DNA from: Clostridia bacterium
GTDB lineage: Bacteria > Bacillota > Clostridia > Christensenellales > Aristaeellaceae
Assembly: GCA_017501255.1 (NCBI GenBank)
Contig: JAFVXE010000013.1
Coordinates: 1-47,313, forward strand
DNA: 47,313 bases
Direction of reading: 5' to 3'
Below the pieces are notes generated by a model. That model was given only the letters and a program-made list of their open reading frames with translations, had not been told where the DNA came from and made no database searches. Of the stretch, positions 3,045 through 43,631 are shown piece by piece. Numbering within the stretch: position 1 is the stretch's first letter; every line of letters begins with the position of its first letter. The position numbers were made by a program, and so were the translations under genes.

Positions 3045-4589
3045 TTATCGTTCTCCCAGCGCTGTCAGCTGGTACAAATACACATCCGTGAACCACAGCC
3101 CCTCGGGGGCGGGGCAGGTATCCACCAGCGTGTACAGTCCGCTCAGATCTTCCCGCAGCGGGCGGCGGGTGACCACGAAATCGCTGAGGCCCTCCCGCAC
3201 ATAGCGATCCTGTTCGCTGCGCAGCTCATCCAGCGGCATATTGGGCAGGTGATAATACTTCAGATGAGGCGTGACCCCTGCGGCGGTGTAGAAGCCCCAA
3301 TCCAGAAACTCATAGTTGAGCAGGGTGGCGTTTTCTTTTTGGTTGATGATCTTGGCAAAGCGGTATTGCATCATCTCGTCCTGCCTGGGCTGGTCAAAGG
3401 GCTTGTTGGGGCTCAGGAAGGGGGCGCTCAGAATGGGCAGCAGGATGAGAAGCGCTGCCAGCACTGGGGTTACCATTCTGGCAGACAGCGATTTCTTTTC
3501 TGCTGCATTCGCAGAATCATTGGCAGATTTGGCAAGCCGCCTGCCCACCATGGCGAAAAACAGGGGAACCATGGCGCCAAAGGCAAAACCATAGTAGAGA
3601 TAATACCGCCCGCCGAAGAATACGGTGATCAGCCCGAATACGCCGCAGAGCAACCATGCGGTTTTCTCTGTGAGACTGTCACGCTTGCTCAGAAGCATCC
3701 ACACAGCGCCGATCAACAGGGGCAGCGTATAGCCGGGATTGTCCCGGATCCAGGACAGCACCGATTTGCAGATGGCTTTCAGCTGCCCCAGAAGGGTCAG
3801 GGGTTCGGCAGCCCCGGCATACAGGAACAGGTTATCATACAGATAGGTTTTCAGCATGGCCAAAAGACCGCCCTGCAAGGCATATTGCACCAGCCATGGC
3901 AGGGTGGCGGCGGCAAAGCCCAGCAGCATCCAGCCGATATGGGTCAGCGCACCACGCACGCCATGCTGTTTCAGCCCCAGCCATGCCAGCATCAGGCAAA
4001 CAGCGGCGGGAATGCCCACCAGCGTAAACTTGAGCCAGAACACGCAGCCCAGCAAAAAGCCGGTGATGCCCAGTTGCCACCGGGTGATCCGTCCATCGTC
4101 CCGGCGCAGGGAAACCATCAGCCGGTACAAGGGCCAGAGCATCATGGGCAAAGCCAGTTCCTCGGCGCTGTCGCCCATCTGGAAACTGATGGAGGTGAGC
4201 AGCATCGCACCAAGAAGGGTCAGGGAGAAAAAGGCGATGCGTTCATTGGCATACAGCGCAATAAGCTTGTAGGCAGTCAGCAGAAACAGAGCAAACAGGA
4301 TGATCTCCAGAAACCACACGCCTAAAAAGCTGTCTGTGGACACCAGAGCGCACAGGGCGTGCAGGGCAAAAAGCAGAGGGCCCTTGTGGTCATAAAGATC
4401 ACGGAACATCACTTTGCCCTCCAGCATCCCCTTGCCGGCGGACAGGAATACATTGGCATCGGGCCAGTCGTTCAGCGGGTAAAGAGGGGAGCATTTGGAG
4501 GTGAAAAACAGCAGAATGGCGCTGATGAGAAAGGAATACAGAATGATACCGGTATTCAAACAGAAAGGACGCTTGGTCCGGGTGTTCAT
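3045..4589 (-). CDS. Integral membrane glycosyltransferase-like protein (GT39/ArnT-type fold)
   Basis: 514 aa, about ten or more hydrophobic segments, ending in a soluble tail. After the first membrane segment comes an extracellular loop with acidic residues (NDWPDANVFLSAGK, then FRDLYDHKGPLLF). This layout is typical of GT39/GT-C polyprenyl-phosphate-sugar transferases, which move sugars to envelope acceptors. Start chosen at 4589 because GAAGGTGA lies just upstream; an ATG at 4604 is possible. It diverges from the gene at 4707, so promoters for both must lie in 4590-4706. Substrate unknown. A looser relative sits at 28115-29626. Confidence 0.65.
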   Translation of the reverse strand: MNTRTKRPFCLNTGIILYSFLISAILLFFTSKCSPLYPLNDWPDANVFLSAGKGMLEGKVMFRDLYDHKGPLLFALHALCALVSTDSFLGVWFLEIILFALFLLTAYKLIALYANERIAFFSLTLLGAMLLTSISFQMGDSAEELALPMMLWPLYRLMVSLRRDDGRITRWQLGITGFLLGCVFWLKFTLVGIPAAVCLMLAWLGLKQHGVRGALTHIGWMLLGFAAATLPWLVQYALQGGLLAMLKTYLYDNLFLYAGAAEPLTLLGQLKAICKSVLSWIRDNPGYTLPLLIGAVWMLLSKRDSLTEKTAWLLCGVFGLITVFFGGRYYLYYGFAFGAMVPLFFAMVGRRLAKSANDSANAAEKKSLSARMVTPVLAALLILLPILSAPFLSPNKPFDQPRQDEMMQYRFAKIINQKENATLLNYEFLDWGFYTAAGVTPHLKYYHLPNMPLDELRSEQDRYVREGLSDFVVTRRPLREDLSGLYTLVDTCPAPEGLWFTDVYLYQLTALGER

Positions 4590-31200: not shown

Positions 31201-31253
31201 GAAGTGCAGGCGGTCAAACCGCCCTGCAATTTCCTGTGAAGGGAAGGAACGAT

Positions 31254-32111
31254 ATGCGAAATTGTGATACCATCACCTGCGCCGTTACGCCTGGTGCAGG
31301 TTGTGTCGTGCCGTCCACGGCCTCTGTTTTTCAGGCTGTGGGCAAAACGGGCTTCGGCGAGAACTGCTGCCAGCAGGAGGAGGCACAGCGTTGCCTCGGC
31401 GGCTGCCTGAGAAGCAACACCTGCCAGAAAACGGGATGGTGCTGCCCGGGCAATGCTGCGCAAGCCAGCTGTGGCAACGGTTGCGCTGCAGAGACCTGCG
31501 GCAGTGCTTCCCCCAGCAACTGCGGCTGCGAAACCAATGCCAACTGCCAGAACAGCTGGGCCAACAGCTGCCAGAAATGCAAGGGTTGCAATCAGAATAA
31601 TGGCAACTGCGGCAATGCCAACCCCGCCGCTTCCTGCGCCAGCGCTTGTTGCAAGCTCGCTTGTGCTGCGGGTTGCCAGAGCAGCGTTCCCGCAGTGAAC
31701 TGCGCTGCTTCCACCACCTGCGGCTGTGCTGCCGGTCAGTGCAGCAGCAACGGCAATCCCCCCGCCATGGTATATGAGGCGGAGCATCAACTCTGCAAGA
31801 TGCACCAGATCGAGGAAGCCATCCGCAAGGGTACCCTGTTCAGTCAGCTGTATATGCCCATGAACGGCGAATGCGCCGATGCCTGCGGCGCTACCCTCTG
31901 CGATGGTCAGGCGGAGGCCTTTGCCGCCTGGGAACTGCGCCTGTATCTCAACACCCATCCCTGCGATCAGCAGGCTTTGCAGCTGTTCCAGCAAATGGCC
32001 TGTAAGGCTGGCGAACCCAACTATGCCAGCAGCTTCGTGGAGGGTTGCCAGTCCCGCTGGAACTGGACGGACGCTCCCTGGCCCTGGGAATTCAATTGCG
32101 CCTGTGAGTAA
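31254..32111 (+). CDS. Fusion of a Cys-rich domain with CotJA-like and CotJB domains (spore coat)
   Basis: 285 aa with 38 cysteines. Residues 1-175 are a low-complexity Cys/Asn/Gly/Ala region with 29 Cys, including CC pairs and many CxxC and CGC groups. Next comes a CotJA-like segment (HQIEEAIRKGTLFSQLYMP, near 185-205). Then a CotJB domain: AWELRLYLNTHPCDQQALQL and the closing WNWTDAPWPWEF. CotJA and CotJB are normally separate proteins of about 80-90 aa. Cysteines occur in all parts, suggesting a disulfide- or metal-crosslinked coat layer. cotJC follows after 14 nt. Start at 31254 with GAAGGGAAGGA upstream. The fusion itself is read directly; the function is inferred. Confidence 0.85.
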   Translation: MRNCDTITCAVTPGAGCVVPSTASVFQAVGKTGFGENCCQQEEAQRCLGGCLRSNTCQKTGWCCPGNAAQASCGNGCAAETCGSASPSNCGCETNANCQNSWANSCQKCKGCNQNNGNCGNANPAASCASACCKLACAAGCQSSVPAVNCAASTTCGCAAGQCSSNGNPPAMVYEAEHQLCKMHQIEEAIRKGTLFSQLYMPMNGECADACGATLCDGQAEAFAAWELRLYLNTHPCDQQALQLFQQMACKAGEPNYASSFVEGCQSRWNWTDAPWPWEFNCACE

Positions 32112-32125
32112 GGAGGGGTTCAGCC

Positions 32126-32548
32126 ATGTTTGTTTATGAGAAAAAGTTGCAATATCCGGTGCGCATTACCCGCCCGGATCCCCGGATGGCAACGGCCATC
32201 ATCAGCCAGTACGGCGGCCCCGACGGCGAGATGGCGGCCTCCCTTCGGTATCTGAGCCAGCGGTTCTCCATGAATGATCCCAAGGTGAAGGGCCTGCTCA
32301 CGGATATTGGCGTAGAAGAACTTGGTCATCTGGAGATTGTGGGGGCTATGGTGTATCAGCTCACCCGCGGAATGTGCGAGAGCGACCTGAAAAAGGGCGG
32401 CTTCGATGCCTATTTCACCGATCACACTTTGGGGGTCTATCCCCAGTCCGCCGCCGGTCATCCCTTTACGACGGCCTATATCGGCGTGAAGGGCGACCCC
32501 ATCACCGATCTGCATGAAGATCTTGCAGCAGAGGGTGCGAGGCTGTAA
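32126..32548 (+). CDS. cotJC: CotJC (manganese-catalase-like spore coat protein), 5' portion, interrupted
   Basis: 140 codons as it stands; family members are near 190-200. Start and fold are typical (YEKKLQYPVRITRPDPRMA, GGPDGEMAASLRYLSQRF, VEELGHLEIVGAMVYQL). Predicted di-manganese ligands present are E35, E65, H68 and E136, the last in the codon where the sequence breaks. After DLAAE the frame runs into foreign DNA and stops (GARL-stop). The rest of cotJC is at 43394-43594. Joining the two at the shared 12-bp core gives 198 codons with no frame change. CotJC is an inner-coat protein made in the mother cell. Ribosome site AAGGAGGGG; co-transcribed with the CotJA/CotJB fusion. Confidence 0.93.
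   Translation: MFVYEKKLQYPVRITRPDPRMATAIISQYGGPDGEMAASLRYLSQRFSMNDPKVKGLLTDIGVEELGHLEIVGAMVYQLTRGMCESDLKKGGFDAYFTDHTLGVYPQSAAGHPFTTAYIGVKGDPITDLHEDLAAEGARL
32522..32533 (+). other. attL core of the cotJC intervening element
   Basis: CTTGCAGCAGAG, identical to 43394-43405, with GA(T/C) preceding both. It encodes LAAE (residues 133-136) of CotJC. The dyad analysis of the joined element ends places the crossover dinucleotide at GA, 32531-32532. Confidence 0.88.
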
Positions 32549-32734
32549 AGGCAACAACCGGTCTGCTGATTTTATACAACAGAAGTTCTTGAAACTGGCA
32601 GCTTTTTGTGTTTAACTATATAGTGGCAGCAGCGTTGTTTTCATTATACAGGTATCATCATTCGGCGCTTCCCGGGGAGGCGTGGCAAGCAGGCTGCTAC
32701 CATCTGAAATACGGTTACAGGGAGTTGAAAATCG

Positions 32735-34177
32735 ATGAACCATGCCTCCAGTTGGGATTTCACCATGGCGAACTATGACGCTGTCTGGGCTTTTCTGGTA
32801 CAGCTGGGCTTGCTGCTTTTGTTTCTGATGATGGGCAACATCCTCCGGCGCACCATTCCGGTGTTCCGCAAGTGTCTGGTACCTTCTGCACTGCTGGGTG
32901 GCGCACTTTTGCTGGTGGTCAACATTATTCTGAAGCAGTTTGGTTTCGCACTGGTGGATAACCGGCTGATGCAGGTAATCACTTACCATTGCCTGGCCAT
33001 CGGCTTTGCATCCATGTCGCTGAAAACAGAAAAGAGCAACCACAAAACCAATAAGGCGCAGGTGCTGGAATTCGGCGCATTGCAGGGCGGTACCTATATG
33101 CTGCAGGCCTGCGTTGGTCTGGGTATCACGCTGGTGATGTTCCTGCTTACCCGCTATGGCGACAGGATCGTTTCCTACATCTGCGGTTTGATTCTGCCGC
33201 TGGCTTTTGGTCAGGGCCCCGGAAACGCTCTCAGCTGGGATATCAACTTTACCAACACCCCCGCCGCCCAGTTTGCCGGTAATGGCAGCTTTGGTCTGTC
33301 TCTTGCGTCCATTGGTTTTGTGGTGGCTTCCGTGTTTGGTGTGCTGTATATCAACATTCACAAGAAGCGTGGCGATTTAGTGGTGCGCACCGGCACACCG
33401 GTGGAACTGGCTGTTGAACAGATTGATCCCAACAGCGAGATCCCGGATAACGAGTCTGTGGACAAGTTCTCCCTGCAAGCGGGCTTTGTGGCGCTGGCCT
33501 ATGCCATTTCCTTTGGCTTTATGTACCTGTTGGGCATCCTGTCCGACTTTACCAACAGCATCGCCTGGGGTTTCAACTTCCTGTGGGCTTCTCTGGCAGC
33601 CATGCTGATCCGTTTCGTGGTCAGGCAACTGCGCAGGCATAAACTCATGCACCGGGAATACATCAACAATTATCAGATGGACCGTATTTCCGGCTTCTCC
33701 TTTGACCTGATGATTGTTGCCGGTGTGGCGGCCATTGAAATCAACGATATCAAGGACTATATCCTGCCCATCGTGCTTCTCAGCCTGGTGGGTACGGTGA
33801 TCACCTATGTGTATATCCGTCTGGTGGCCAAGGAATGCTTCAAGGGCTTTGAGCATGAGTTTTTCCTGATGGCGTTCGGTACCTTGACCGGCACGGCTTC
33901 CAATGGCATGATTCTGACCAAGGAAATCGACCCCGGCCTGCGTACCCCCACCTCCAGCCTGTACATTCTCTCCAACTTCCCCGCTATGGTGATGATTGCA
34001 CCGTTGCTGCTTTTGCTGGGCTTTGCCGGCAAATCCCTGACGAATGCCATCATTGCCTGCGCTATCTTCTTTGTGCTGTGGCTCAGCTATACCCTCTTCC
34101 TCTTTCGCAGAAAGATTTTCGTAAAGCGGTATCAGGATGAATCCGTCGCTGCCTGGACGGAGGATGCCGAAGCCTGA
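32735..34177 (+). CDS. Sodium/glutamate symporter family protein (GltS-like)
   Basis: 480 aa with about twelve membrane segments in two similar halves. The first half has LVPSALLGGALLLVV and CGLILPLAFGQGPGNALSW. The second has FLMAFGTLTGTASNGMILTK, a re-entrant Gly/Ser/Thr loop in the same place as in GltS. GltS proteins take up glutamate with Na+; the substrate of this divergent member may differ. First gene inside the left end of the element, about 200 nt from attL, with its own terminator at 34189-34239. ATG 32735 follows CAGGGAG. Confidence 0.82.
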   Translation: MNHASSWDFTMANYDAVWAFLVQLGLLLLFLMMGNILRRTIPVFRKCLVPSALLGGALLLVVNIILKQFGFALVDNRLMQVITYHCLAIGFASMSLKTEKSNHKTNKAQVLEFGALQGGTYMLQACVGLGITLVMFLLTRYGDRIVSYICGLILPLAFGQGPGNALSWDINFTNTPAAQFAGNGSFGLSLASIGFVVASVFGVLYINIHKKRGDLVVRTGTPVELAVEQIDPNSEIPDNESVDKFSLQAGFVALAYAISFGFMYLLGILSDFTNSIAWGFNFLWASLAAMLIRFVVRQLRRHKLMHREYINNYQMDRISGFSFDLMIVAGVAAIEINDIKDYILPIVLLSLVGTVITYVYIRLVAKECFKGFEHEFFLMAFGTLTGTASNGMILTKEIDPGLRTPTSSLYILSNFPAMVMIAPLLLLLGFAGKSLTNAIIACAIFFVLWLSYTLFLFRRKIFVKRYQDESVAAWTEDAEA

Positions 34178-34188
34178 CAACGGATGCA

Positions 34189-34239
34189 AAAACCCCGCAG
34201 TCGCTGCCTCTGATAAAGTGGTCGGACTGCGGGGTTTTG
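34189..34239. terminator. Terminator between the GltS-like and AraC genes
   Basis: AAAACCCCGCAGTC (34189-34202) and GACTGCGGGGTTTT (34225-34238) between convergent genes; A- and T-runs on both sides allow two-way termination. Confidence 0.92.
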
Positions 34240-34257
34240 TGATACAGCGGCGGAGGC

Positions 34258-35208
34258 TCATTCCTGCAATTTGCGGTATTGCCGGGGCGAAATGCCGTAT
34301 TCCTGCTTGAAGGATCTGAAAAAGCTGGAGTAATCGGAAAAGCCGGTCTGATTAGCCACGGCTTCCAGCCGCTGGCCTTTTTCGATGAGGGTTTTGGCAG
34401 CAATGAGCCGCCGCTGGGTCACATAGCGGTAAAAGCTGACCCCCAGCTTCTGTTTGAACACATGGCTGATGGTACTGCTGCTGACGAAGAACTGTTTGGC
34501 TAAATCCGCAATCACAATGGGCTGGGCATAGTGGCCTTCCACATAGGTGGTGATTCGGTCCAGCAGTTCGGGCTGTTCTGCTTTCAGGGCATGAGCAGCC
34601 CGGCCTTTGGCTGCGCGCCGGAGCTGAGTCAGCAACTGGATGGTGTTGCCGATAACGGCGGCCTGCCAGCCATCCGTTTTGGCTTCGGCCTCCTTCACTC
34701 CGCTGAGAAACATCTCTCCAAGATATTCGAAGGGCGTGCCGCTGGTGCGCAGCAGGAATGCAGCGGGCACCTTGTTCGGTGTGTCTGCTTCCGGCGTGAG
34801 ATCGGTATACCACTTCATGAAATCCATGCTGATCCATAGCACATAACGGATATAGGGGCTTGCCATATTCTCGGGCAGCAGGGGACGGTGACTGACGCCG
34901 GGAGGCATAAACACGATATCCCCCTGCTGAAGCCGGTAGCGCTCGGAACCCACCAGGTATTCCACCCCGCAGTTGCTGGCGCAGTAGAGAAGCTCGAAGA
35001 AGGTGTGGCTGTGCAGCTGCAACTGCGCATTGGCATGGCTGGTATCCCGGTGGGTATCCACATAGCGGGAGGTCATCTCCAGCTCCTGATAGAGATTGTT
35101 GGGGTTCAGCCCCATGCTGATCAGCTGCTCATGGAGCCATTCCTGCAACTGGGGCCCCTGCTGATGGGGAACCATCTGCGCCAGTTTCTGCAATTCATCC
35201 AGTTTCAT
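34258..35208 (-). CDS. AraC family transcriptional regulator
   Basis: 316 aa. The N-terminal half has a cupin sensor domain (HSHTFFELLYCASNCGVEYL, then GDIVFMPPGVSHRP), as in sugar-sensing AraC proteins. The C-terminal 100 residues contain the two helix-turn-helix units (IADLAKQFFVSSSTISHVFK and AVANQTGFSDYSSFFRSFKQ) ending YGISPRQYRKL. It probably controls one of the transport operons inside the element; the sugar symporter-esterase pair is the best candidate because cupin AraC regulators usually sense carbohydrates. Divergence from those genes is not direct. Start 35208 with GGAGG 9 nt upstream. Confidence 0.9.
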   Translation of the reverse strand: MKLDELQKLAQMVPHQQGPQLQEWLHEQLISMGLNPNNLYQELEMTSRYVDTHRDTSHANAQLQLHSHTFFELLYCASNCGVEYLVGSERYRLQQGDIVFMPPGVSHRPLLPENMASPYIRYVLWISMDFMKWYTDLTPEADTPNKVPAAFLLRTSGTPFEYLGEMFLSGVKEAEAKTDGWQAAVIGNTIQLLTQLRRAAKGRAAHALKAEQPELLDRITTYVEGHYAQPIVIADLAKQFFVSSSTISHVFKQKLGVSFYRYVTQRRLIAAKTLIEKGQRLEAVANQTGFSDYSSFFRSFKQEYGISPRQYRKLQE

Positions 35209-35254
35209 GGCTGTATCCTCCGGCGGTGTTTTGCGCCGTATTTATCATACCACA

Positions 35255-36010
35255 TCAACGCCATTGTTGCAGCATTTCCTGCATCCAGGCATATACATCC
35301 ATATGATAGACCTTATGCAGGTTCTCTTTGGTCAGCACGGCAGCGATCTCGCCCTGGGCAGCACATCTGCCCTGATGCATCAGTACGGCATGGGTGCCGT
35401 ATCGGCGAGCCAGGCTCAGGTCGTGCACCACGGAGAGCACCGCCCGCCCCGGCGTTTTCAGCCACTGGGCAATCAGGGAGAAAATATGCTGCTGATACAC
35501 TAAATCCAGATGGTTGGCAGGCTCGTCCAGAATCAGCAGCTGGGGATTCTGGGCAAATACCTGCGCCAGAAAAGTGCGCTGCAATTCGCCGCCGGAAAGG
35601 GTCAGCACGCTGGCATGGCGCAGTTCCGTCAGACCAGTGGCTTCCAACGCCCGCTGCACCTGTTCGCCCCCTTCCGCATCAGCGGAGGAAAGAAAGCCGG
35701 TAGTGTAGGCATAGCGCCCCAGCCCCACCACTTCGTCCACGGTGTAGCCATACCCCACACTGTTGTTCTGCGACAGCACACCGATCTTCCGTGCCATCTG
35801 GTTGGGCTTATAGCGGCGGAGATCCTTTCCGTCCAGCTGGAAGGCGCCGCTATAGGGCACGCCTTGGGAAATGGCCTCGATCAAAGTGGATTTGCCAGCC
35901 CCGTTGGGGCCCACCAGCATCAGCCATTGCCCTTCTTCAATGGTAAAGCTCAAATCGTCCACCACAGTGTGCTCCCCGTAGCGGACGGTGATGTTGTTTC
36001 CTTTTAGCAT
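35255..36010 (-). CDS. btuD: Corrinoid/iron-type ABC transporter ATP-binding protein
   Basis: 251 aa. Complete ABC ATPase motifs: Walker A LVGPNGAGKSTLIEAI, signature LTLSGGELQRTFLAQ, Walker B LLILDEPANHLDL and the H-loop VVHDLSLARRYG. It belongs to the FecE/BtuD branch that powers uptake of cobalamin, siderophores or haem. The cobalamin riboswitch ahead of the operon makes corrinoid the likely substrate. Last gene of the btuF-btuC-btuD order. ATG 36010 is preferred; a GTG at 36019 that overlaps the permease stop is an alternative. Confidence 0.9.
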   Translation of the reverse strand: MLKGNNITVRYGEHTVVDDLSFTIEEGQWLMLVGPNGAGKSTLIEAISQGVPYSGAFQLDGKDLRRYKPNQMARKIGVLSQNNSVGYGYTVDEVVGLGRYAYTTGFLSSADAEGGEQVQRALEATGLTELRHASVLTLSGGELQRTFLAQVFAQNPQLLILDEPANHLDLVYQQHIFSLIAQWLKTPGRAVLSVVHDLSLARRYGTHAVLMHQGRCAAQGEIAAVLTKENLHKVYHMDVYAWMQEMLQQWR

Positions 36011-36015
36011 ACCGG

Positions 36016-37047
36016 TCACCCTGCCTTTCTGGTGCGCCAGAAGATTGCCACAAACGCCGCTGCGCCCACCAGGGAAGTGACCACGCCGATGGACAGCTCC
36101 ACAGGCCGGAGAAGGGTACGGGCCACCAGATCGGCCAGCAGCAGGAAGATGGCACCGGCAAACAGGGAGGCGGGCAGCAGCCGCTTGTGGTTGGGCCCGG
36201 TGAGCATCCGGGTCATGTGAGGCACCACCAGCCCCACAAAGCCAATGGTACCGGAAATGGATACGCAGATACCGATCAGCGCCGATACGGCAACCAGGAT
36301 GATCAGCTTGACCCGGCGTACATTTACGCCGATATGGCGGGCGTTCTCCTCACCGATGGCAAAGGCGTTCAGCTCCCGGCTGTAGCCGAGGATCACGCCC
36401 CCCAGCACCAGCACAGCCACCCCCAAAATGAGCGAATGGCCGAAATGGGTGCCGGAAAGAGAACCCATCGTCCAGAAGGTGATGGACTTGATGCGCTCAC
36501 CGGCAAAGGAAATGATCAGGTTGATCAGGCTGGACGCGAACATGGAAAAGATGACGCCAATCAGGATGATGCTGTTGGTGGAAAGGGAACGGTCCAGCCC
36601 ATAGGCAAGCCCAAGGATGGCCACCAGCGCCAGAAAAGCAAAGAGCATGGCCATGAGCATCACGCCGCCATGGGTGGTGCCGGGAAGGGTGATCCCCAGC
36701 GCCAGCGCCAGCACGGCACCCAGTGATGCGCCGCTGGAGACGCCCAGCGTGGAACCGTCTGCCAGCGGGTTGCGCAAAAGCCCCTGCATGGCTGCGCCGC
36801 ACAGGGACAGCGCTGCTCCCACCAGCGCCACATTGAGCACCCGGGGCAGGCGTACATTCAAAATGATGCTTTTGGCGATCCCAGCGGGAATCTCCAGCCC
36901 CCAGAGGCTGTTGTGCAGCGCAGTGACGGTATCGGACAGGGCAATGGATACACTGCCCAGACAGATGCACAGCAGCATGGAAGATGTCAGTGCTGCTACA
37001 AACAGCAGGTAGATACCAAGGGAAAAGGTTTCGGTGCGTTTCTTCAT
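36016..37047 (-). CDS. btuC: FecCD-family ABC permease, probable corrinoid uptake
   Basis: 343 aa with about ten membrane segments. Family signatures are clear: VRLPRVLNVALVGAALSLCG with AAMQGLLRNPLADGSTLGVS, and later GTIGFVGLVVPHMTRMLTGP, the coupling-helix region that contacts the ATPase. As a homodimer it forms the membrane channel of BtuCD-type importers. ATG 37047 (the reading frame extends to a TTG at 37056). It lies 59 nt behind btuF, with a strong hairpin in the gap that may tune relative expression. Confidence 0.92.
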   Translation of the reverse strand: MKKRTETFSLGIYLLFVAALTSSMLLCICLGSVSIALSDTVTALHNSLWGLEIPAGIAKSIILNVRLPRVLNVALVGAALSLCGAAMQGLLRNPLADGSTLGVSSGASLGAVLALALGITLPGTTHGGVMLMAMLFAFLALVAILGLAYGLDRSLSTNSIILIGVIFSMFASSLINLIISFAGERIKSITFWTMGSLSGTHFGHSLILGVAVLVLGGVILGYSRELNAFAIGEENARHIGVNVRRVKLIILVAVSALIGICVSISGTIGFVGLVVPHMTRMLTGPNHKRLLPASLFAGAIFLLLADLVARTLLRPVELSIGVVTSLVGAAAFVAIFWRTRKAG

Positions 37048-37060
37048 GGTTCTCAAAGGT

Positions 37061-37092
37061 GGGGGAGAGCCGGTATGGAACCGGCCTCCCCC
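37061..37092 (-). other. Intercistronic hairpin between btuF and btuC
   Basis: Arms 37061-37074 and 37080-37092 pair with a 5-nt loop and one unpaired base. No T-tract follows, so an mRNA-stability or processing element is more likely than a terminator. It would favour the binding protein over the permease. Confidence 0.6.
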
Positions 37093-37106
37093 AAGGGTCG
37101 AAAGGA

Positions 37107-38018
37107 TTATGCGGCAGGTACTTCCTCATCCACAATGTCATTGAGGAAATGGTACAGATCCATGGCTGCCTCCATCAGACGGGGAGCAGGACGGGTCATG
37201 GAGTAAGAATTGGCATTATAGACGGCGCCATTCTGAATGGCGGTAATATCGCCCCAGCCGGTGCGGTTCAGCACTTCGTCCACAGCGGTTTCGCCCATGC
37301 CGGTAACCAGCACGATGTAGTCCGGGTTGCGCTCAATCACCTGCTCCTGACTGATGGGCTGCCAGCCGTCCAGATCTGCAAAGGCGTTCTGCATACCGCA
37401 GATTTCAGCCAGCTCGTGCATGAAGGTGTTGGTGCCGGCGCTCCACAGCCCCCACTCCAGCGGCATAACTTCAAAATAGATGGTTTTATCGGTTTTTTCG
37501 CTCTTGGCGGCAATCTCCGCAAAGGTGGTCTGCATTTCAGCCACCAGCGCTTCGGCCTCAGTGTCCTTGCCCATCACCTTGCCCAGCAGGCGGATGTTTT
37601 CGTACACTTCCTCCAGACTGTTGGCATTGGTGGCGATCACCGGAATGCCGTTCTGCTCGAGCAGCTTTACCTGCTCGGTGCTATGGGCCATATCATTCAT
37701 GACCACCACCTGAGGATTCAGCGCCAGAATCTCTTCCAGATTGGTGTCGGCACCGGACTGCACAGCAGGCAGAGCGGTAATGCTTTCGGGGTAGTCGCAG
37801 TACAGTCCGCGACCCACCAGCGCATCGCCGCAGCCAAGGGCATACAGGATCTCGCAATCGCCGGGCTCGGTGGCGACGATGCGGGTGACGGGGCCGGATA
37901 TGGTGATCTCACGATCGAACATATCGGTCACGGTGAAGGTGGTGCCTTCTGCCGCCGCGGTGGCCACGCTGAAGAGCATCAGCAGGCAAAGGAACAGGGA
38001 AACGGTTTTCTTGGACAT
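37107..38018 (-). CDS. btuF: ABC transporter substrate-binding protein, probable corrinoid
   Basis: 303 aa. Signal peptide at the start (KKTVSLFLCLLMLFSVATAA); no clear lipobox, although a Cys lies in the hydrophobic stretch. Two lobes joined by a long helix as in class III binding proteins: VTDMFDREITISGPVTRIVA, LNPQVVVMNDMAHSTEQV, then EQVIERNPDYIVLVTGMGE. The family delivers cobalamin, haem or siderophores to FecCD permeases. It is the first gene behind the cobalamin riboswitch. Start 38018 has GAGGAGG at 8 nt; longer in-frame starts lie inside the leader. Confidence 0.9.
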   Translation of the reverse strand: MSKKTVSLFLCLLMLFSVATAAAEGTTFTVTDMFDREITISGPVTRIVATEPGDCEILYALGCGDALVGRGLYCDYPESITALPAVQSGADTNLEEILALNPQVVVMNDMAHSTEQVKLLEQNGIPVIATNANSLEEVYENIRLLGKVMGKDTEAEALVAEMQTTFAEIAAKSEKTDKTIYFEVMPLEWGLWSAGTNTFMHELAEICGMQNAFADLDGWQPISQEQVIERNPDYIVLVTGMGETAVDEVLNRTGWGDITAIQNGAVYNANSYSMTRPAPRLMEAAMDLYHFLNDIVDEEVPAA

Positions 38019-38189
38019 AGGTAGTCCCTCCTCATATGTGATCAAATGAATCAGCGAGAGGGTCTTTTTCAAAAGAAAAAGCGTCCCTCCCTGAGGAACA
38101 CTAACCAGGCCGATCCTTTTTGCACACGGAAAAAAGGCTTGCAGCCCAAATAGCATATCCCAACCCCAGGGGAATGATGGATGTCACGG

Positions 38190-38345
38190 TGTAAACAAGT
38201 CTCCCGGCTTGGCTTCATCTTACTGGCACACCTTCCCGCTTTCGCAGTGGCTTCCATGGTGCGTTCATCAGCTTCACGGTTACTGGGATAGCCCGGAACT
38301 TTCATCCGATTCCTATGGCGCAGCGCCGGAGCGCTGGCCGCACAT
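38190..38345 (-). ncRNA. Cobalamin riboswitch
   Basis: On the minus strand the conserved blocks appear in order: GGAATCGGATGAAAGTTCC then CGGGCTATCCC, AACCGTGAAGC, GCCACTGCGAAAGCGGGAAG and GAAGCCAAGCCGGGAGAC. These correspond to the GGGAA..GGUG, B12-box GCCACUG and AGYCAGGAGAC elements of the class. It lies about 170 nt before btuF. The leader between (about 38040-38160) holds A/T-rich hairpins suited to an expression platform. High corrinoid should lower expression of btuFCD. Confidence 0.9.
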
Positions 38346-38409
38346 CGCTGTGCAGATACACCGGCTATTCATTTGTCGTTCTCTATTATAGCGGAGAGGG
38401 CCGATGTGC

Positions 38410-38473
38410 GTCAATTTGTTTCGAAAATTGACAGGATTTGCAGGAATTCCAATATTTGTTGCAATTCCTGCAA
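38410..38473. promoter_or_regulatory. Two inverted-repeat operators before the GPH symporter gene
   Basis: GTCAATTT/AAATTGAC (38410-38417, 38425-38432) and a perfect 11-bp pair TTGCAGGAATT/AATTCCTGCAA (38438-38448, 38463-38473). They stand between the divergent btuF leader and the symporter. A TACAAT -10-like element follows near 38498. Probably sites for a sugar-responsive regulator, perhaps the AraC protein of the element. Confidence 0.65.
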
Positions 38474-38565
38474 TTTATTTTGCAGAACAATCGTGATACA
38501 ATATCATTGCATTTATGGTACTCATATCGCCATAATACACAAACATTAACAGGAGGAACCACACC

Positions 38566-40065
38566 ATGGCCAAGAAAGTTAAGACTCCCGGCAGCCTGAC
38601 CACCAAGCACTGGCTGGGCTATATGTTCGGCGACTGGGGCGGCTGCATGACCTTCACCCTGATGGCCAGCATCTTCTCCATGTACTGCACCAATGTGCTG
38701 GGCATCGACCCCACCCTGATGGGTACTCTGGTGCTGATCTGGACCATCTGGGATGCTGTGAACGACCCCATGATGGGTGCTTTGATGGACAAGGCGTTCG
38801 CCAAGAAGCAGAACAAGAACGGCAAGTTCCGTCCCTGGCTGCTGCGCGCCACCCCCCTGCTGGCGGTGACCGCTATCGCCCTGTGGACCGTGCCCACCTT
38901 CTTTGATGGCATTGCCACCATCGTTGTGCTGTTCTCCTGCAAAATTCTGTACGAAGCAGCCTACACCATGTTCAACATCCCCATGGGTTCCCTGCTGTCC
39001 GCCATGTCCACCAACGACTCCGAGCGTGCTTCCCTGTCCTCTGCCCGCGGCGTTGGCTCCATGATCGGCAACATGATCCCCGGTATGGTAGGCCCTGTGA
39101 TCATCGGTATGTTCGGCGACAGAACCTCCACCGGCTACACCATCACCGGTGTGATCTGTGCTGTGATCGGCTTCGTGATCTGCCTGATGCACTACTTCTG
39201 GACCGAGGAACGCACCACGGTTGGTGCCGACACCAAGGCGGACGATATCAAGTTCTCCGATATCCTCACCGTGGTCAAGAAGAACCGCCCCTTCCTGGCG
39301 CTGTGCATCCATGGTATCTGCATCTGCACCATGCAGTATCTGGTTTCCAACATCAGCCTGTATATGTACTCCGAAGTGTACCATGATGTGACCTACCAGT
39401 CCATCAGCTCTGCTCTTTCCGCTCCCTTCATGATCGGCTCCATGATCGCTGTGCCCTTCATCTGCAAAAAGCTGGGTCTGGAAAAGCTGATCCGCTACTC
39501 CCTGCTGATCGGCGGCGCCATCTGCGCAGCCCTGTTCGGTATGCACTTGGTGATGGATGTGCATCCCCTGGTTCATGGCGTGATTCTGGGCATCGGTTCC
39601 GGTCTGGCCATGGTTTCCATTCAGATGCAGTGGGGCCTTGTGGGCGAAGCCATTGACTACAACGAGCTGATTACCGGCAAGCGCACCGAAGGCTCCATCT
39701 ACGGCACCTTCAATCTGGCCCGCCGCATCGGTCAGGCCATCGGCAGCTCCTTCGGCTTCTATGTGCTGGCCTGGATCGGCTTCGACGCTGCCAAGGAAAT
39801 GCAGAGCGCAGGCACCATCTTCGGCCTCAAGGCACTGTGCGTGCTGATTCCCGCTGTGTTCATTCTGGGTTCCTGGGCTGCTTTCAAGTTCGTGTGGAAC
39901 ATCACCCCTGAAAAGCGTGCCGAAATGGCTGCCCTCAAGGCTGCCAAGGTGGATGCTCCCGAAGGAACCGTGGAAGAAGTTGCACAAGCCGTGGAAGAGA
40001 CCGTAGAAACCGTGGAAGAAACGGCGGAAGCGGTGGAAGAAGAGACGAAGTCCACTGAAATGTAA
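38566..40065 (+). CDS. GPH family sugar:cation symporter (MelB-like)
   Basis: 499 aa, twelve membrane segments. The N-terminus (LGYMFGDWGGCMTFTLMASI, with the Asp in TM1) and IWDAVNDPMMGALMDKAF are hallmark GPH/MelB motifs for cation-coupled uptake of glycosides, pentosides or hexuronides. The last 35 residues are an acidic, repetitive tail (EEVAQAVEETVETVEETAEA), which MelB lacks. The esterase gene follows after 85 nt, so the pair probably imports and de-esterifies a substituted sugar. Ribosome site CAGGAGG; operators upstream. Confidence 0.9.
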   Translation: MAKKVKTPGSLTTKHWLGYMFGDWGGCMTFTLMASIFSMYCTNVLGIDPTLMGTLVLIWTIWDAVNDPMMGALMDKAFAKKQNKNGKFRPWLLRATPLLAVTAIALWTVPTFFDGIATIVVLFSCKILYEAAYTMFNIPMGSLLSAMSTNDSERASLSSARGVGSMIGNMIPGMVGPVIIGMFGDRTSTGYTITGVICAVIGFVICLMHYFWTEERTTVGADTKADDIKFSDILTVVKKNRPFLALCIHGICICTMQYLVSNISLYMYSEVYHDVTYQSISSALSAPFMIGSMIAVPFICKKLGLEKLIRYSLLIGGAICAALFGMHLVMDVHPLVHGVILGIGSGLAMVSIQMQWGLVGEAIDYNELITGKRTEGSIYGTFNLARRIGQAIGSSFGFYVLAWIGFDAAKEMQSAGTIFGLKALCVLIPAVFILGSWAAFKFVWNITPEKRAEMAALKAAKVDAPEGTVEEVAQAVEETVETVEETAEAVEEETKSTEM

Positions 40066-40150
40066 GAGATTATCCTGAGGGATGGTATGGAATGGGCGCA
40101 GGAGAACCCTCCGCCCCTCCGCATCCATCCGACAGAAAGGATTCATGCCC

Positions 40151-41509
40151 ATGGACTATATCATCCATACCCCCTGCGGCGCTGTTCAGGGCGCTCAAGG
40201 CCGGGTGGCGGGCACCGCCGCCTATAAGGGCATCCGCTATGCGACGGCTGGACGCTGGGAGTATCCCAAGCAGGTCACCGGTTGGGAAGGCACCTATGAT
40301 GCCACCCAGTACGGCGCCTGTTCCTACCAGCCCCGCTCGTTCTACAACGAAGAAGAAAATCTGAAAAAGATTTTCTACTACAACGAGTTCCGCAAGGGCG
40401 AAAGCTATCGCTACAGCGAGGATTGCCTGTTCCTGAACATTTTCACCCCCGATACCGCCAAAGAAGGGGACAAGCTGCCGGTGCTGATTTACATCCACGG
40501 CGGCGGGTTCACCGGCGGCTGCGGTCACGAAAAGCATTTTGACGGCCCGGTGTGGCCTCAGAAGGGCATCATCGGCGTCACGCTGAACTACCGCCTTGGC
40601 CCCATGGGCTTTGTGTGTCTGCCTCAGCTCAAGGAAGAAGCCGGAGTGACCGGCAACTATGGCCTGTATGACCAGCTGTGCGCCATTCAGTGGGTGCATG
40701 ACAATATCGCTGCTTTTGGCGGCGACCCGGACAACATGACCATCATGGGGCAGAGCGCAGGCGCTATGAGCGTGCAGCAGCACAGCCTGAGCCCCCTGAG
40801 CGCAGGGTTGTTCCAGCGGGCCATCATGTCCAGCGGCGGCGGTGTCAGCAAGGTGCTCTCTGCCAAACCGGCGGAAAACCACTACGCATTCTGGCAGAAA
40901 GCCATGGAGAATGCAGGCTGCGATACTTTGGAACAGTTCCGTGCCATCACCCCGGAAAAGCTGTTTGAAAGCTGGAATCAGACCAAGAAGGAACTGCACT
41001 CCCCCGGTACGGTTCCCTGCCTGGATGGCCGCCTGATTGTGGGCACCGGCGATGAACTGCTGGCAGCCGGCAAGCAGCATCCCATTCCCTATATGGCAGG
41101 TTCCACCAGCGAGGATATGATGCCGCCCATCCTGTACGGCATGGCTCAGAAATGGTGCGCTGCACAGCTGACCCCCAGCTATACCTGGTTCTTCGACCGG
41201 CAGCTGCCCGGAGACGACAACGGCGCATGGCATTCCTCGGATTTGTGGTACTGGTTCGGCACGCTGGAAAACAGTTGGCGTCCCTTTGAAGAAAAGGACT
41301 ATGCCCTCAGCGGGCAGATGGTCAGCTACCTGTGCAACTTTGTACGCACAGGCGACCCCAACGGCGATGGTCAGCTGCCCCAGTGGAAGGCCTCCGGCGC
41401 TCGGCAGAATGCGGCGCTGATGCTGGGCGAGGGGGAAACCCATATGGACAAACCCAGCAGGCTGAAAATGATCAAAACCATGCTCACCAACAAAGCGGTG
41501 GGTGAATAA
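40151..41509 (+). CDS. Carboxylesterase, type B family
   Basis: 452 aa. Alpha/beta hydrolase with the oxyanion motif PVLIYIHGGGFTGG, the EDCLFLNIFTP motif and the nucleophile elbow IMGQSAGAMSVQ (catalytic Ser). The acidic member is likely the Glu in AGSTSEDMM and the His in WHSSDLWYW. It hydrolyses carboxyl esters, perhaps acyl or methyl groups on the sugar brought in by the symporter just upstream. There is no signal peptide, so it acts inside the cell. Start 40151 has AAAGGA 9 nt away; ATG 40145 is an alternative. The terminator is at 41528-41580. Confidence 0.9.
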   Translation: MDYIIHTPCGAVQGAQGRVAGTAAYKGIRYATAGRWEYPKQVTGWEGTYDATQYGACSYQPRSFYNEEENLKKIFYYNEFRKGESYRYSEDCLFLNIFTPDTAKEGDKLPVLIYIHGGGFTGGCGHEKHFDGPVWPQKGIIGVTLNYRLGPMGFVCLPQLKEEAGVTGNYGLYDQLCAIQWVHDNIAAFGGDPDNMTIMGQSAGAMSVQQHSLSPLSAGLFQRAIMSSGGGVSKVLSAKPAENHYAFWQKAMENAGCDTLEQFRAITPEKLFESWNQTKKELHSPGTVPCLDGRLIVGTGDELLAAGKQHPIPYMAGSTSEDMMPPILYGMAQKWCAAQLTPSYTWFFDRQLPGDDNGAWHSSDLWYWFGTLENSWRPFEEKDYALSGQMVSYLCNFVRTGDPNGDGQLPQWKASGARQNAALMLGEGETHMDKPSRLKMIKTMLTNKAVGE

Positions 41510-41527
41510 TTCCGTTGTACTGCGAAA

Positions 41528-41580
41528 CGGCAGGAGCAATGATTTCCGTGAGGATTCACTGCTTCTGCCGCTTTTCTTTT
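41528..41580 (+). terminator. Terminator after the carboxylesterase gene
   Basis: 15-bp stem with one mismatch (41528-41542 with 41556-41570), followed by CTTTTCTTTT. It isolates the recombinase unit from the sugar operon, so the recombinase must have its own promoter. Confidence 0.9.
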
Positions 41581-41599
41581 GCAAAAAGGCTGCCGATAA

Positions 41600-41631
41600 G
41601 GCATAGGGGCCCTTTATCCCTTCATATCCAT
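41600..41631 (+). promoter_or_regulatory. Possible SigE-like promoter of the recombinase unit
   Basis: GCATAGG (41601-41607) against SigE -35 KMATATT (5 of 7), 15-nt spacer, CATATCCA (41623-41630) against -10 CATACAMT (5 of 8). It lies just after the terminator and about 30 nt before the ATG of the 54-aa ORF. No SigA-type pair is evident here. Suggestive, not proven. Confidence 0.4.
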
Positions 41632-41659
41632 TGACGAAAGAGAAGGAAGGAGGCAGCCT

Positions 41660-41824
41660 ATGCCAATCGTCAGTTCCCGGCACCCCTGTTGCACAAATGT
41701 GTTGCAAAGCCCGTCAGAGGTGGAAATCAGCGCCGCCATCACCCGGCGGTGGATTCGGCTCATCACCCGGCTTCAGGAACAGAAAGAGTACCCACCCGCA
41801 CCCCGGCAGGAAGCAGAAGGATGA
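41660..41824 (+). CDS. 54-aa ORF coupled to the serine recombinase
   Basis: 54 codons, preceded by a very strong ribosome site (AAGGAAGGAGG, 41643-41653, 6 nt from the ATG). Its stop overlaps the ATG of the recombinase (ATGA at 41821-41824). It starts MPIVSSRHPCCTNVLQ and continues into a basic, helix-prone middle (EISAAITRRWIRLITRLQEQ). I do not recognise the family. Position and size suit a recombination directionality factor or other excision helper, as small proteins serve for serine recombinases of SPbeta and some skin elements; a simple leader peptide that couples recombinase translation is the alternative. Confidence 0.7.
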   Translation: MPIVSSRHPCCTNVLQSPSEVEISAAITRRWIRLITRLQEQKEYPPAPRQEAEG

Positions 41825-43374
41825 AAGCCGCCATCTATTGCCGCCTTTCCGAAGAAGATCGGAACAAACATTCCGCCACCGATGACAGCAACAGCATTCA
41901 GAACCAGAAAGCCATGCTGGTTCAGTATGCCGCTGAAAACCACTGGGAAGTGACCCGCATCTACAGCGATGACGACTATACCGGCGCTGATCGGAACCGT
42001 CCGGCCTTCAAAGCGCTGCTGCATGATGCGGAACAAAGGCAGTTTGATATTATCCTTTGCAAAACCCAGTCCCGCTTTACCCGTGAGCTGGAGCTGGTGG
42101 AAAAGTACATCCATGGGTTGTTCCCTGCCTGGGGCATCCGGTTCGTCAGCATTGTGGATCATGCGGATACGGCCAGCAAGGGCAACAAAAAATCCCGGCA
42201 GATCAATGGACTGGTCAATGAGTGGTATCTGGAGGACCTGTCGGAGAACATCCGGAGCGTGCTGGACAGCCGCCGCAAAAATGGCTTGCACATCGGGGCG
42301 TTTGCGTTGTATGGCTACCAAAAGGATCCGGACAGGAAGGGGCATCTGCTGATCGACCCGGAAGCGGCCTCAGTGGTGCGGGAGGTGTTTCGCCTGTATG
42401 CTTCTGGCATGGGCAAGACCGCTATCGCCCGCCAGCTCAATGACCGGGGCATTCCCAACCCCACGGAGTACAAGCGGATGAAAGGCTTGCGCTATCAGCA
42501 GCCCAACCGCCCAAACAGCACCCTGTGGCGGTATGCTGCCATTGCGGATATGCTGACCAATGAGATCTATATCGGCAACATGGTGCAAGGCAGATACGGA
42601 AGCGTATCCTACAAAACCAAGCAGAACAGGCCCCGCCCCCAAAGCCGGTGGTATGTGGTGAAAAATACCCATGAGCCCATCATCCGGCGGGAATTGTGGG
42701 AGGAAGTGCAGGCATTGATTGCCCAGCGGGCCAAACCCTTCGGTAATGGACAGATTGGGTTATTTGCCGGAAAAGCCATATGCGCCGGCTGCGGCTATGC
42801 CATGCGCTCCAGCATCAGCAGGGGTGTGCGCTATCTGAAATGCGGCAGCCGCCCCGTTGCCAAGGATGCGTGCGAAGGTTCCTTCATCCGTGTGGAGCGT
42901 TTGGAGCGCATGGTGCTGGAAGAATGGCAGCATCTTTCCGAAACCTATGTGGATTGGGCAGCGCTGAAGCAGCAGGTTGCCTTTGGCAAGGCCCGGGAGC
43001 AGGAACTGCGCAGATGGAAACGGGAAGAAAACCAGCATCGGCGGCGCATGGAGGAATACACCAGCGCTATCCGCAGTTTATACATGGATCAGGCAAAGGG
43101 GCTTCTTTGCCAGGAGGACTATACGCCGCTGCTTCAGGATTTTCAGCGGGAACGGAGCCGGTGCGAAAAACAGCTCCGGGAGATTGCAGAAAAAATCAGC
43201 CGGTTGGAGGAACGGCTGAAAGCGGAGGAGAACCAACAGGCTGAGTTGGAACAATATCTGCATCCTGAACACCTGACCCGGGAGATAGTGGAAGAGATGA
43301 TTGACCGCATAGAGGTGGGCAAGCGGATTCCCGGCACACGGGATGTGCCGGTGACCATTCATTGGCGGTTTTGA
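41821..43374 (+). CDS. Large serine recombinase (site-specific)
   Basis: 517 aa. Resolvase-type catalytic domain with nucleophile Ser10 in AAIYCRLSEEDRNK and later motifs IYSDDDYTGADRNRPAF and CKTQSRFTREL. Next come the recombinase domain (GKTAIARQLNDRGIPNP, NEIYIGNMVQG) and the zinc ribbon (ICAGCGYAMRSS ... YLKCGSRP ... KDAC). A heptad-rich coiled coil (about residues 400-480) precedes a C-terminal beta segment. It is the integrase/excisionase class of skin-type elements. Its stop is 19 bp from the right core. Start 41821 overlaps the stop of the 54-aa ORF; a longer in-frame start at 41689 would read through that ORF. Confidence 0.96.
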   Translation: MKAAIYCRLSEEDRNKHSATDDSNSIQNQKAMLVQYAAENHWEVTRIYSDDDYTGADRNRPAFKALLHDAEQRQFDIILCKTQSRFTRELELVEKYIHGLFPAWGIRFVSIVDHADTASKGNKKSRQINGLVNEWYLEDLSENIRSVLDSRRKNGLHIGAFALYGYQKDPDRKGHLLIDPEAASVVREVFRLYASGMGKTAIARQLNDRGIPNPTEYKRMKGLRYQQPNRPNSTLWRYAAIADMLTNEIYIGNMVQGRYGSVSYKTKQNRPRPQSRWYVVKNTHEPIIRRELWEEVQALIAQRAKPFGNGQIGLFAGKAICAGCGYAMRSSISRGVRYLKCGSRPVAKDACEGSFIRVERLERMVLEEWQHLSETYVDWAALKQQVAFGKAREQELRRWKREENQHRRRMEEYTSAIRSLYMDQAKGLLCQEDYTPLLQDFQRERSRCEKQLREIAEKISRLEERLKAEENQQAELEQYLHPEHLTREIVEEMIDRIEVGKRIPGTRDVPVTIHWRF

Positions 43375-43393
43375 TGTTGGTTGCATTCATGAC

Positions 43394-43405
43394 CTTGCAG
43401 CAGAG
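43394..43405 (+). other. attR core of the cotJC intervening element
   Basis: CTTGCAGCAGAG, same as 32522-32533, in the cotJC reading frame (LAAE). The predicted crossover dinucleotide GA is at 43403-43404. The outer arm GTTGCATTCA (43380-43389) mirrors TAAAGGCAAC (32546-32555) at the other end of the element. Confidence 0.88.
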
Positions 43406-43594
43406 CAGAAGGCCCGCACCACCTACGAGAACCTGCTGCATCTGGCAGACGACCCGGATGTGAAGGATGTACTGCGCTATCTGCGTCAGCGGGAGATTGT
43501 GCACTATCAGCGCTTTGCCGAAGCGCTGGGCATGGTGCGTGACCAGCTGGATGAAAAGAATTTCTATGCCTTCAATCCGGCATTGATAAACTAA
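43394..43594 (+). CDS. cotJC: CotJC, 3' portion (distal exon), no start of its own
   Basis: 66 codons that continue CotJC after the shared core: LAAEQKARTTYENLLHLADD, RYLRQREIVHYQRFAEALG and the typical Tyr/Phe-rich end KNFYAFNP. REIVHYQRF carries the last predicted metal ligand, H169 of the rebuilt protein. No in-frame start codon or ribosome site precedes it, so it cannot be made alone; it depends on excision of the element. The frame, codon style and the terminator right after it (43603-43631) show it is the original 3' end of the cotJ operon. Confidence 0.93.
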   Translation, partial: LAAEQKARTTYENLLHLADDPDVKDVLRYLRQREIVHYQRFAEALGMVRDQLDEKNFYAFNPALIN

Positions 43595-43602
43595 AGAAAA
43601 AT

Positions 43603-43631
43603 GGGCCGTTGCAATCAAGCTGCAACGGCCC
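43603..43631. terminator. Terminator of the cotJ operon, shared with the convergent sugar operon
   Basis: Perfect 11-bp stem 43603-43613 with 43621-43631 and a 7-nt loop, between the cotJC end and the convergent sugar-kinase gene. Confidence 0.85.

Follow-up and report, generated by a model that had tools for sequence, protein, structure and literature searches.

A likely mobile element within the spore-coat gene cotJC of Clostridia, probably excised by its own serine recombinase during sporulation

How a spore former might keep a coat gene whose reading frame is interrupted by 10.9 kb of other DNA is the question raised by cotJC in the window, i.e., the whole 47,313-bp stretch of DNA analyzed here, which is one contig of a 61-contig genome of a Clostridia bacterium (Aristaeellaceae; GenBank assembly GCA_017501255.1, contig JAFVXE010000013.1). 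The gene sigK (interrupted by the skin element) and other sporulation genes carry elements that are removed in the mother cell, which is terminally differentiated. A first-pass annotation made from the sequence of the window had read the locus as a skin-like element in cotJC, and this reading is supported where sequence can test it. The element is likely mobile and lodged at codon 136. Its serine recombinase quite probably removes it in the sporulating mother cell, which would rebuild CotJC; we infer both the excision and its timing from the DNA. Beyond what had been annotated, the element belongs to a large family, cotJC is hit at three positions, and some cotJC genes are in three pieces.

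The break itself is well defined. The 5′ part of cotJC (32126..32533, + strand; codons 1–136, from the reading frame and an alignment with relatives) continues for four foreign codons to a stop at 32546–32548, which confirms the annotated end of the frame after 140 codons. The 3′ part (43406..43594, +; codons 137–198 and the stop) is open and lacks a start of its own, as had been claimed; its frame extends from 43394 to a stop at 43592–43594. Both breakpoints carry a copy of the 12-bp core CTTGCAGCAGAG, the left one (attL) at 32522..32533 and the right one (attR) at 43394..43405, both on the + strand and in the same reading frame (LAAE). Joining at the core removes a unit of 10,872 bp and yields a 597-bp cotJC encoding 198 amino acids; recomputation returned the annotated values throughout, and the stop of the large serine recombinase gene (43374) indeed lies 19 bp before the right core. 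A comparison with relatives had been set as a check beforehand, and its outcome agrees: close relatives with an uninterrupted cotJC show the predicted join. The joined CotJC is 63–90% identical to nine uninterrupted same-genus CotJC. Of these nine genes, seven align with the window as far as 32533–32540 and resume at 43388–43391; in the interval, five have no match at all, and L005 and L007 have two short ones each. Together with recurrence in many genomes and a palindromic attP site, these seven genes place the break beyond chance. The locus has these features of a skin-like element, namely insertion inside a sporulation gene, frame-restoring end repeats, and an element-encoded recombinase. 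Directly 5′ of cotJC lies a CotJA/CotJB-like gene of the cotJ operon (31236..32111, +; Pfam CotJB 1.6e-11, CotJA weak at 6e-4 and below cut-off), and behind the distal half, where the operon terminator had been placed, lies a GC-rich hairpin (about 43603–43631); it was seen by eye and no terminator scan was made.

The point of crossover within the 12-bp core cannot be placed from the window alone. In the genomes G521, G522, and G213, the right ends read GTACCAGAG or GTACCGGAG, which leaves a shorter shared core, and only a crossover in the last bases restores AAEQK, narrowing it to CAGA or less. The arms that would meet in the excised circle, i.e., the attL element arm (32534..32560, +) and the attR element arm between recombinase stop and core (43375..43393, +), form an imperfect inverted repeat that matches at 15 of 24 positions in the window. 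Among 22 codon-136 elements with both ends, all of which join in frame, the arms of attP match at 16.1 of 24 positions on average (weakest in G016, 8; G578 reaches 20 in the correct register), compared to a mean of 6.1 in random stretches of the same DNA, of which 0.14% of 3,450 reach 14 or more, and 3.5 for the arms of attB. For scoring, the repeat was centered on GA; since the codon for residue 136 starts with these two bases as well, sharing of GA alone proves little. A short attP pattern occurs in four of 186 fetched loci (from three genomes), each time at the end of a cotJC 5′ half. An intact attP-like junction at L096 was considered as a free circle; tandem elements fit better, because cotJC pieces are present in that genome, the distal one on the same contig.

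The recombinase of the window (41821..43374, +; 517 amino acids) has Resolvase, Recombinase, zinc-ribbon, and DUF4368 domains, with PF00239, PF07508, and PF13408 above cut-off as in large serine recombinases, and its nearest sequence relatives among solved proteins are TnpX and the SPbeta recombinase YokA. At least 568 of the 588 stretches from the recombinase search encode relatives, and the analysis used the 80 closest among the recombinase matches listed in public species genomes (64–69% identity). A cotJC piece lies on the fetched stretch of 75 of these 80; cotJC is broken at codons 133–136 no more than 6 kb downstream of the recombinase in 72, and no more than 0.45 kb downstream in 66. 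Counting these 72 and the window, the end of the recombinase gene faces the distal half in 59 of 73 cases and the proximal half in 14; for L096, the distal half is on the same contig, outside the fetched stretch. Among IMG/VR relatives with at least 64% identity, six of seven sit at the same codon (the seventh is cut by the contig end); of four relatives at 38–45% identity, none does. All 81 recombinases (80 and the window) are open over more than 450 codons, and the codon-136 recombinases form one clade with support 99/99 in a tree of 45, in which some joins rest on long branches and L088, L136, and L140 are labeled codon-136 by kinship only, as is L096, whose half was found separately. Side by side at one cotJC site, L111 (9995–14430) carries two family recombinase genes in tandem, the second broken, i.e., stacked elements. 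In L140 (6114–7000), a family recombinase lies by eye beside a gene of the M14 type (gamma-D-glutamyl-diamino acid endopeptidase type), possibly a second target.

If CotJC is rebuilt, its distal half should still be under selection. Past the break, each of the 69 distinct distal halves has an open frame of 47 codons or more, a count from which badly decayed halves would be missing, given that similarity was the means of finding them; some intact CotJC of the order, too, end already at codon 183. The pooled ratio of nonsynonymous to synonymous rates (dN/dS) of the distal halves is 0.115 (232 pairs, duplicate rows removed), a low value that partly reflects time before insertion. In the trio L109, L121, and L137, the recombinase (dS 0.35–0.42) and the distal half (dS 0.32–0.42) have diverged about equally. 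Because of this, and of the cargo common to L109 and L121, the element was probably already present in their ancestor. Their distal halves differ by 8–10 silent vs. 0–1 amino-acid changes per pair in 44 codons, an excess that would be hard to explain unless cotJC is regularly rebuilt. The distal half of the window differs from that of G009 by 15 silent and no amino-acid differences in the first 44 codons, and against the intact gene of G001, dN/dS is 0.077 in the proximal part of cotJC and 0.058 in the distal part. In the pairs L139/L150 and L127/L145, the histories of recombinase and gene disagree, which indicates horizontal movement.

Directly 5′ of the recombinase, a small gene (41660..41824, +) encodes a 54-aa protein (family profile E 9e-6), predicted to be a recombination directionality factor, and its stop overlaps the recombinase start (ATGA). 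Of 77 loci whose upstream DNA is long enough, the window among them, 76 have a gene for a protein of 45–60 amino acids at this position, and the gene was found in eight of ten genomes that partly overlap those loci (missing in G016 and G143); the consensus of the product is CxSVFKSG...YTxxWIELINRLEKxK. A database search with the small protein of the window returned its own cluster only (1 protein, 18 contigs). In size and position, the small protein fits the directionality factors of skin, gin, and yin, as far as the accessible parts of these reports describe them (PMC5025042; PMC5595907; PMC10747680). Upstream of the small gene, the sigma-E-like pattern ATA-N15..17-CATA[ACT]A occurs in 25 of 72 loci (mean 1.1 and maximum 4 in 60 shuffles), starting 27–65 bp before the gene, with a spacing of 17 in the 24 sites used for a matrix; the signal rests on related sequences, a strict site being present in 6 of 17 recombinase clusters formed at 80% identity and in 1 of 5 formed at 75%. 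The same pattern precedes 12 of 573 other genes in these loci, and with close kin left out of the matrix, 42 of 72 loci have a site at p ≤ 0.05. Sigma-A-like sites are absent before the small gene (0 of 72; shuffle mean 3.8), sigma-G/F-like sites are not enriched there (2 of 72; shuffle mean 2.6), and a candidate position of the sigma-E-like sites directly before the recombinase was rejected as not enriched, with 3 of 77 loci compared to a mean of 1.1 and a maximum of 4 in shuffles. The best matrix site in the window, GGCATAGG-N15-CATATCCATT (41600..41632, +), lies at −60 with the spacing of the family (p 0.0125, 400 shuffles) and is a candidate sigma-E-like promoter. The accessible part of PMC3416734 places cotJC itself in the sigma-E regulon. 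The promoter spacer (AGTGGACTTGCC), about 60–30 bp before the small gene, is conserved and partly palindromic in L093, L089, L162, and others, and is possibly an operator.

Taken as a mechanism, these parts would work as follows: the sigma-E-like promoter before the small gene would confine the small protein and the recombinase to the mother cell, where the 54-aa directionality factor would switch the recombinase from integration to excision, so that the element is cut out during sporulation and full CotJC can be made. The excised circle, with its transporter and esterase cargo, would be lost with the mother cell, and the forespore would keep the element. What the element might gain is a docking site free of cost to the growing cell, within the coding DNA of a conserved active-site motif.

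The same gene is hit elsewhere as well. A profile built from 16 intact CotJC was used to scan 396 genomes from the order and 308 from the family; after sorting by hand, CotJC is present in 117 genomes, 34 of which have a split copy: 17 are broken at codon 136, 16 at about codon 63 (between DIG and TEE), and one at about codon 30 (between QYGG and P). In eight of the 34, one side of the break only was found (G580, G351, G056, G015, G121, G305, G168, G262), the 5′ piece of G264 ends at a contig end, and G056 and G124 also have an intact copy; left out of the count were G116 (both pieces stop at contig ends), G641, G571, 18 genomes with weak matches, and full-length Mn-catalase paralogues. The fetched stretches of G124, G264, G121, G056, G015, G262, and G351 contain no recombinase. 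Beside the codon-63 break of G015, L038 encodes by eye a JAB/MPN-type protein (3773–4222, minus strand), which hints at defense-type cargo. Scored against the family profile, codon-136 recombinases reach 499–1081 bits (87 for one 149-residue fragment), compared to 42–99 bits for those at codons 63 and 30, and ten codon-63 recombinases need three changes on the tree of 45. The breaks adjoin the invariant profile residues E35, E64/E65/H68, and E136, which align with the solved Mn-catalase-like protein Alr3090 and which we take to be metal ligands. Of 11 codon-63 and codon-30 pairs, an automatic search joined 6 cleanly and in frame through a common core of 5–12 bp (G046, G051, G062, G065, G124, G150); its joins in the other five are spurious, and by eye only a few bp are common at the expected place.

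Some genes carry two of these breaks. In Blautia sp. An249 (a named record not marked as a metagenome-assembled genome, presumably an isolate), cotJC lies in three collinear pieces on one strand of one contig, spread over 41 kb: codons 1–63 at 200998, codons 60–136 at 213172, and codons 133–197 at 242319. Each join keeps the frame, and together they yield a normal CotJC. Of the two inserts, the first (about 12 kb) encodes two serine recombinases of other lineages, and the second (about 29 kb) a codon-136 recombinase along with genes that resemble a conjugation module by eye. G670 and G213 also have cotJC in three pieces, L128 shows both breaks, and the pieces of L119, L125, and L178–L180 fit a double break. 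In G213 (L063, L064), codons 39–59 were not found, and a fourth small piece may exist. On balance, we lean toward the broader proposal that cotJC may be a general docking gene of gut Clostridia, on which unrelated recombinase lineages would have converged at three conserved codon blocks near metal-ligand motifs; three-piece genes would then need two sporulation-timed excisions, conjugative elements would use cotJC as a harmless home, and the whole would be the most widespread programmed DNA excision known in bacterial development.

The foremost competing explanation is that of an ordinary mobile island or conjugative element that inactivates cotJC, with rare excision unrelated to sporulation and a host that tolerates a broken coat gene. 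Conjugation-type genes in the codon-136 insert of An249, the discordant gene histories in L139/L150 and L127/L145, and the tandem elements at L111 and L096 all suit such an element. We nevertheless consider it unlikely: the joins are in frame in 22 of 22 codon-136 elements with both ends, all 69 distal halves found are open and have a low pooled dN/dS, those of a trio that apparently inherited the element included, many family members have a sigma-E-like promoter ahead of the small gene, and several recombinase lineages hit this one sporulation gene. Very improbable is a remnant stuck in the source strain, where CotJC would never be whole while the rest of the family is excised elsewhere. It draws on the weak promoter of the window, which fails the strict sigma-E-like pattern, on the diverged small protein, which lacks the conserved CxSxFK stretch, and on the same-site element of the same-genus G016, where the recombinase has lost about 120 C-terminal-region residues, attP is weak, and a small gene is not detectable, so that some family members may be stuck. 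The recombinase of the window, however, is full length with the expected domains, its attP repeat matches at 15 of 24 positions, and over the first 44 codons the differences from G009 in its distal half are purely silent. Hardly any weight attaches to an assembly artefact, i.e., an element wrongly placed within cotJC: the window is a single contig of a 61-contig genome, and the halves of many relatives are on different contigs, but independent assemblies show this junction too, and it is also found inside single contigs (An249, G587, G522, G143).

The preferred reading, excision timed to sporulation, has to accommodate several observations that weigh against it, apart from the state of G016, the deviant promoter and small protein of the window, and the limits given above for the distal halves and the sigma-E-like sites. 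L088, L094, and L136 show no cotJC piece nearby, and the element of L140 is inserted in another gene. A degenerate attP pattern, as expected of a free circle, had no matches in IMG/VR, and no uninterrupted CotJC of the same strain was found, the best match among 120 listed being 95% identical and not evidently from that strain. A sigma-K-like pattern before the small gene, at 4 of 72 loci, also slightly exceeds every one of 60 shuffles (mean 0.5, maximum 3), so that a role of sigma-K is conceivable. Finally, the GC content of the element (0.563) differs little from that of its flanks. In favor of the preferred reading, sporulation genes are present in the genome: three Spo0A_C matches exceed the cut-off, one of them scoring high, and two unbroken sporulation-sigma-like genes reach 274 and 247 bits with the SigK model, below its cut-off of 299.

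In the accessible parts of the literature, the sporulation genes named as carrying insertions are sigK, spsM, gerE, spoVFB, spoVR, and yabG. As far as the same partial sources describe them, skin in sigK of Bacillus subtilis and Clostridioides difficile (PMC5025042) shares with the cotJC element a location inside a mother-cell sporulation gene and a large serine recombinase of its own. It differs in that the target of the cotJC element is a coat enzyme instead of a sigma factor, no phage genes are found among the scanned cargo, the small gene lies directly before the recombinase, and the nearest solved relatives of that recombinase are TnpX and YokA. SPbeta in spsM of B. subtilis (PMC4191935) likewise uses a spore-envelope gene as its dock, which is rebuilt by excision during sporulation through sprA and its partner sprB; SPbeta is a phage, whereas the cargo of the cotJC family is metabolic, plasmid-like, or of conjugation type. 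Closer in being non-phage is gin in gerE of B. cereus ATCC10987 (PMC5595907), with a serine recombinase, the partner GirX, and a 9-bp core. However, gin is 28.6 kb long, has three recombinases, and is described from some B. cereus and B. toyonensis strains, whereas the recombinase of the cotJC family sits at a fixed codon in many Clostridia. The yin element in yabG of Clostridium botulinum V73 (PMC10747680) is clostridial as well, lies inside a sporulation gene, and has a putative small directionality factor; its excised circle was observed. It is a prophage of a single strain in a different gene.

The cotJC element works like skin and SPbeta; new are the target, the non-phage cargo, the several recombinase lineages per gene, and the multi-piece genes. 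The accessible text of PMC5595907, PMC4191935, and PMC5025042 does not mention cotJC, that of PMC10747680 holds no word beginning with cot, and that of PMC4028888 and PMC3416734 contains both cotJC and recombinase and describes no interruption of cotJC. No report of cotJC as the target of an intervening element was found in the literature searched, outside of which lie subscription journals and preprints. Should excision be confirmed, many gut Clostridia would routinely delete DNA in a programmed way while forming spores. Mobile elements, probably including conjugative ones, would then have adapted to the developmental clock of their host, and any cotJC annotated as broken or missing on this account would have to be corrected. 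Set against the handful of sporulation-gene insertions named in the literature, cotJC is split in 34 of 117 genomes, at three positions, and sometimes twice per gene.

The cargo of the element in the window appears to be metabolic. Behind the left core lies a sodium/glutamate symporter-like membrane protein gene (32735..34177, +; PF03616 1.5e-5, just below cut-off), followed on the minus strand by genes for an AraC-family regulator with a cupin-like sensor domain (34258..35208), an ABC transporter ATPase (35255..36019) that adjoins a FecCD-type permease gene (36016..37056; Pfam 2.6e-85), and a substrate-binding protein of the metal/cobalamin type (37107..38156; Peripla_BP_2 6e-36, TroA_like above cut-off). 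A GPH-family sugar:cation symporter (38566..40065, +; TIGR00792 above cut-off, PF13347) and a carboxylesterase (40082..41509, +; PF00135 7e-93) precede the recombinase module. Among nine scanned products (cotJ gene, seven cargo genes, recombinase; short frames were outside the scan), there are no phage structural or replication genes, and no relaxase or type IV secretion genes. A phage collection holds no relative of the recombinase at 60% identity or more, and a plasmid collection a single one, a Subdoligranulum record labeled plasmid; as a plasmid home it was rejected, since the record itself contains a cotJC distal half. Across the family, the elements range from a 3-kb island to an apparently conjugative element, which indicates that inheritance within lineages is probably accompanied by transfer from species to species. 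In the same genus, the codon-136 element of G009 (L032/L033) carries by eye ParA-, ParB-, and replication-initiator-like genes, which suggests a plasmid-like integrating element, and that of G016 (L031) a run of camelysin/TasA-like secreted proteins, also by eye.

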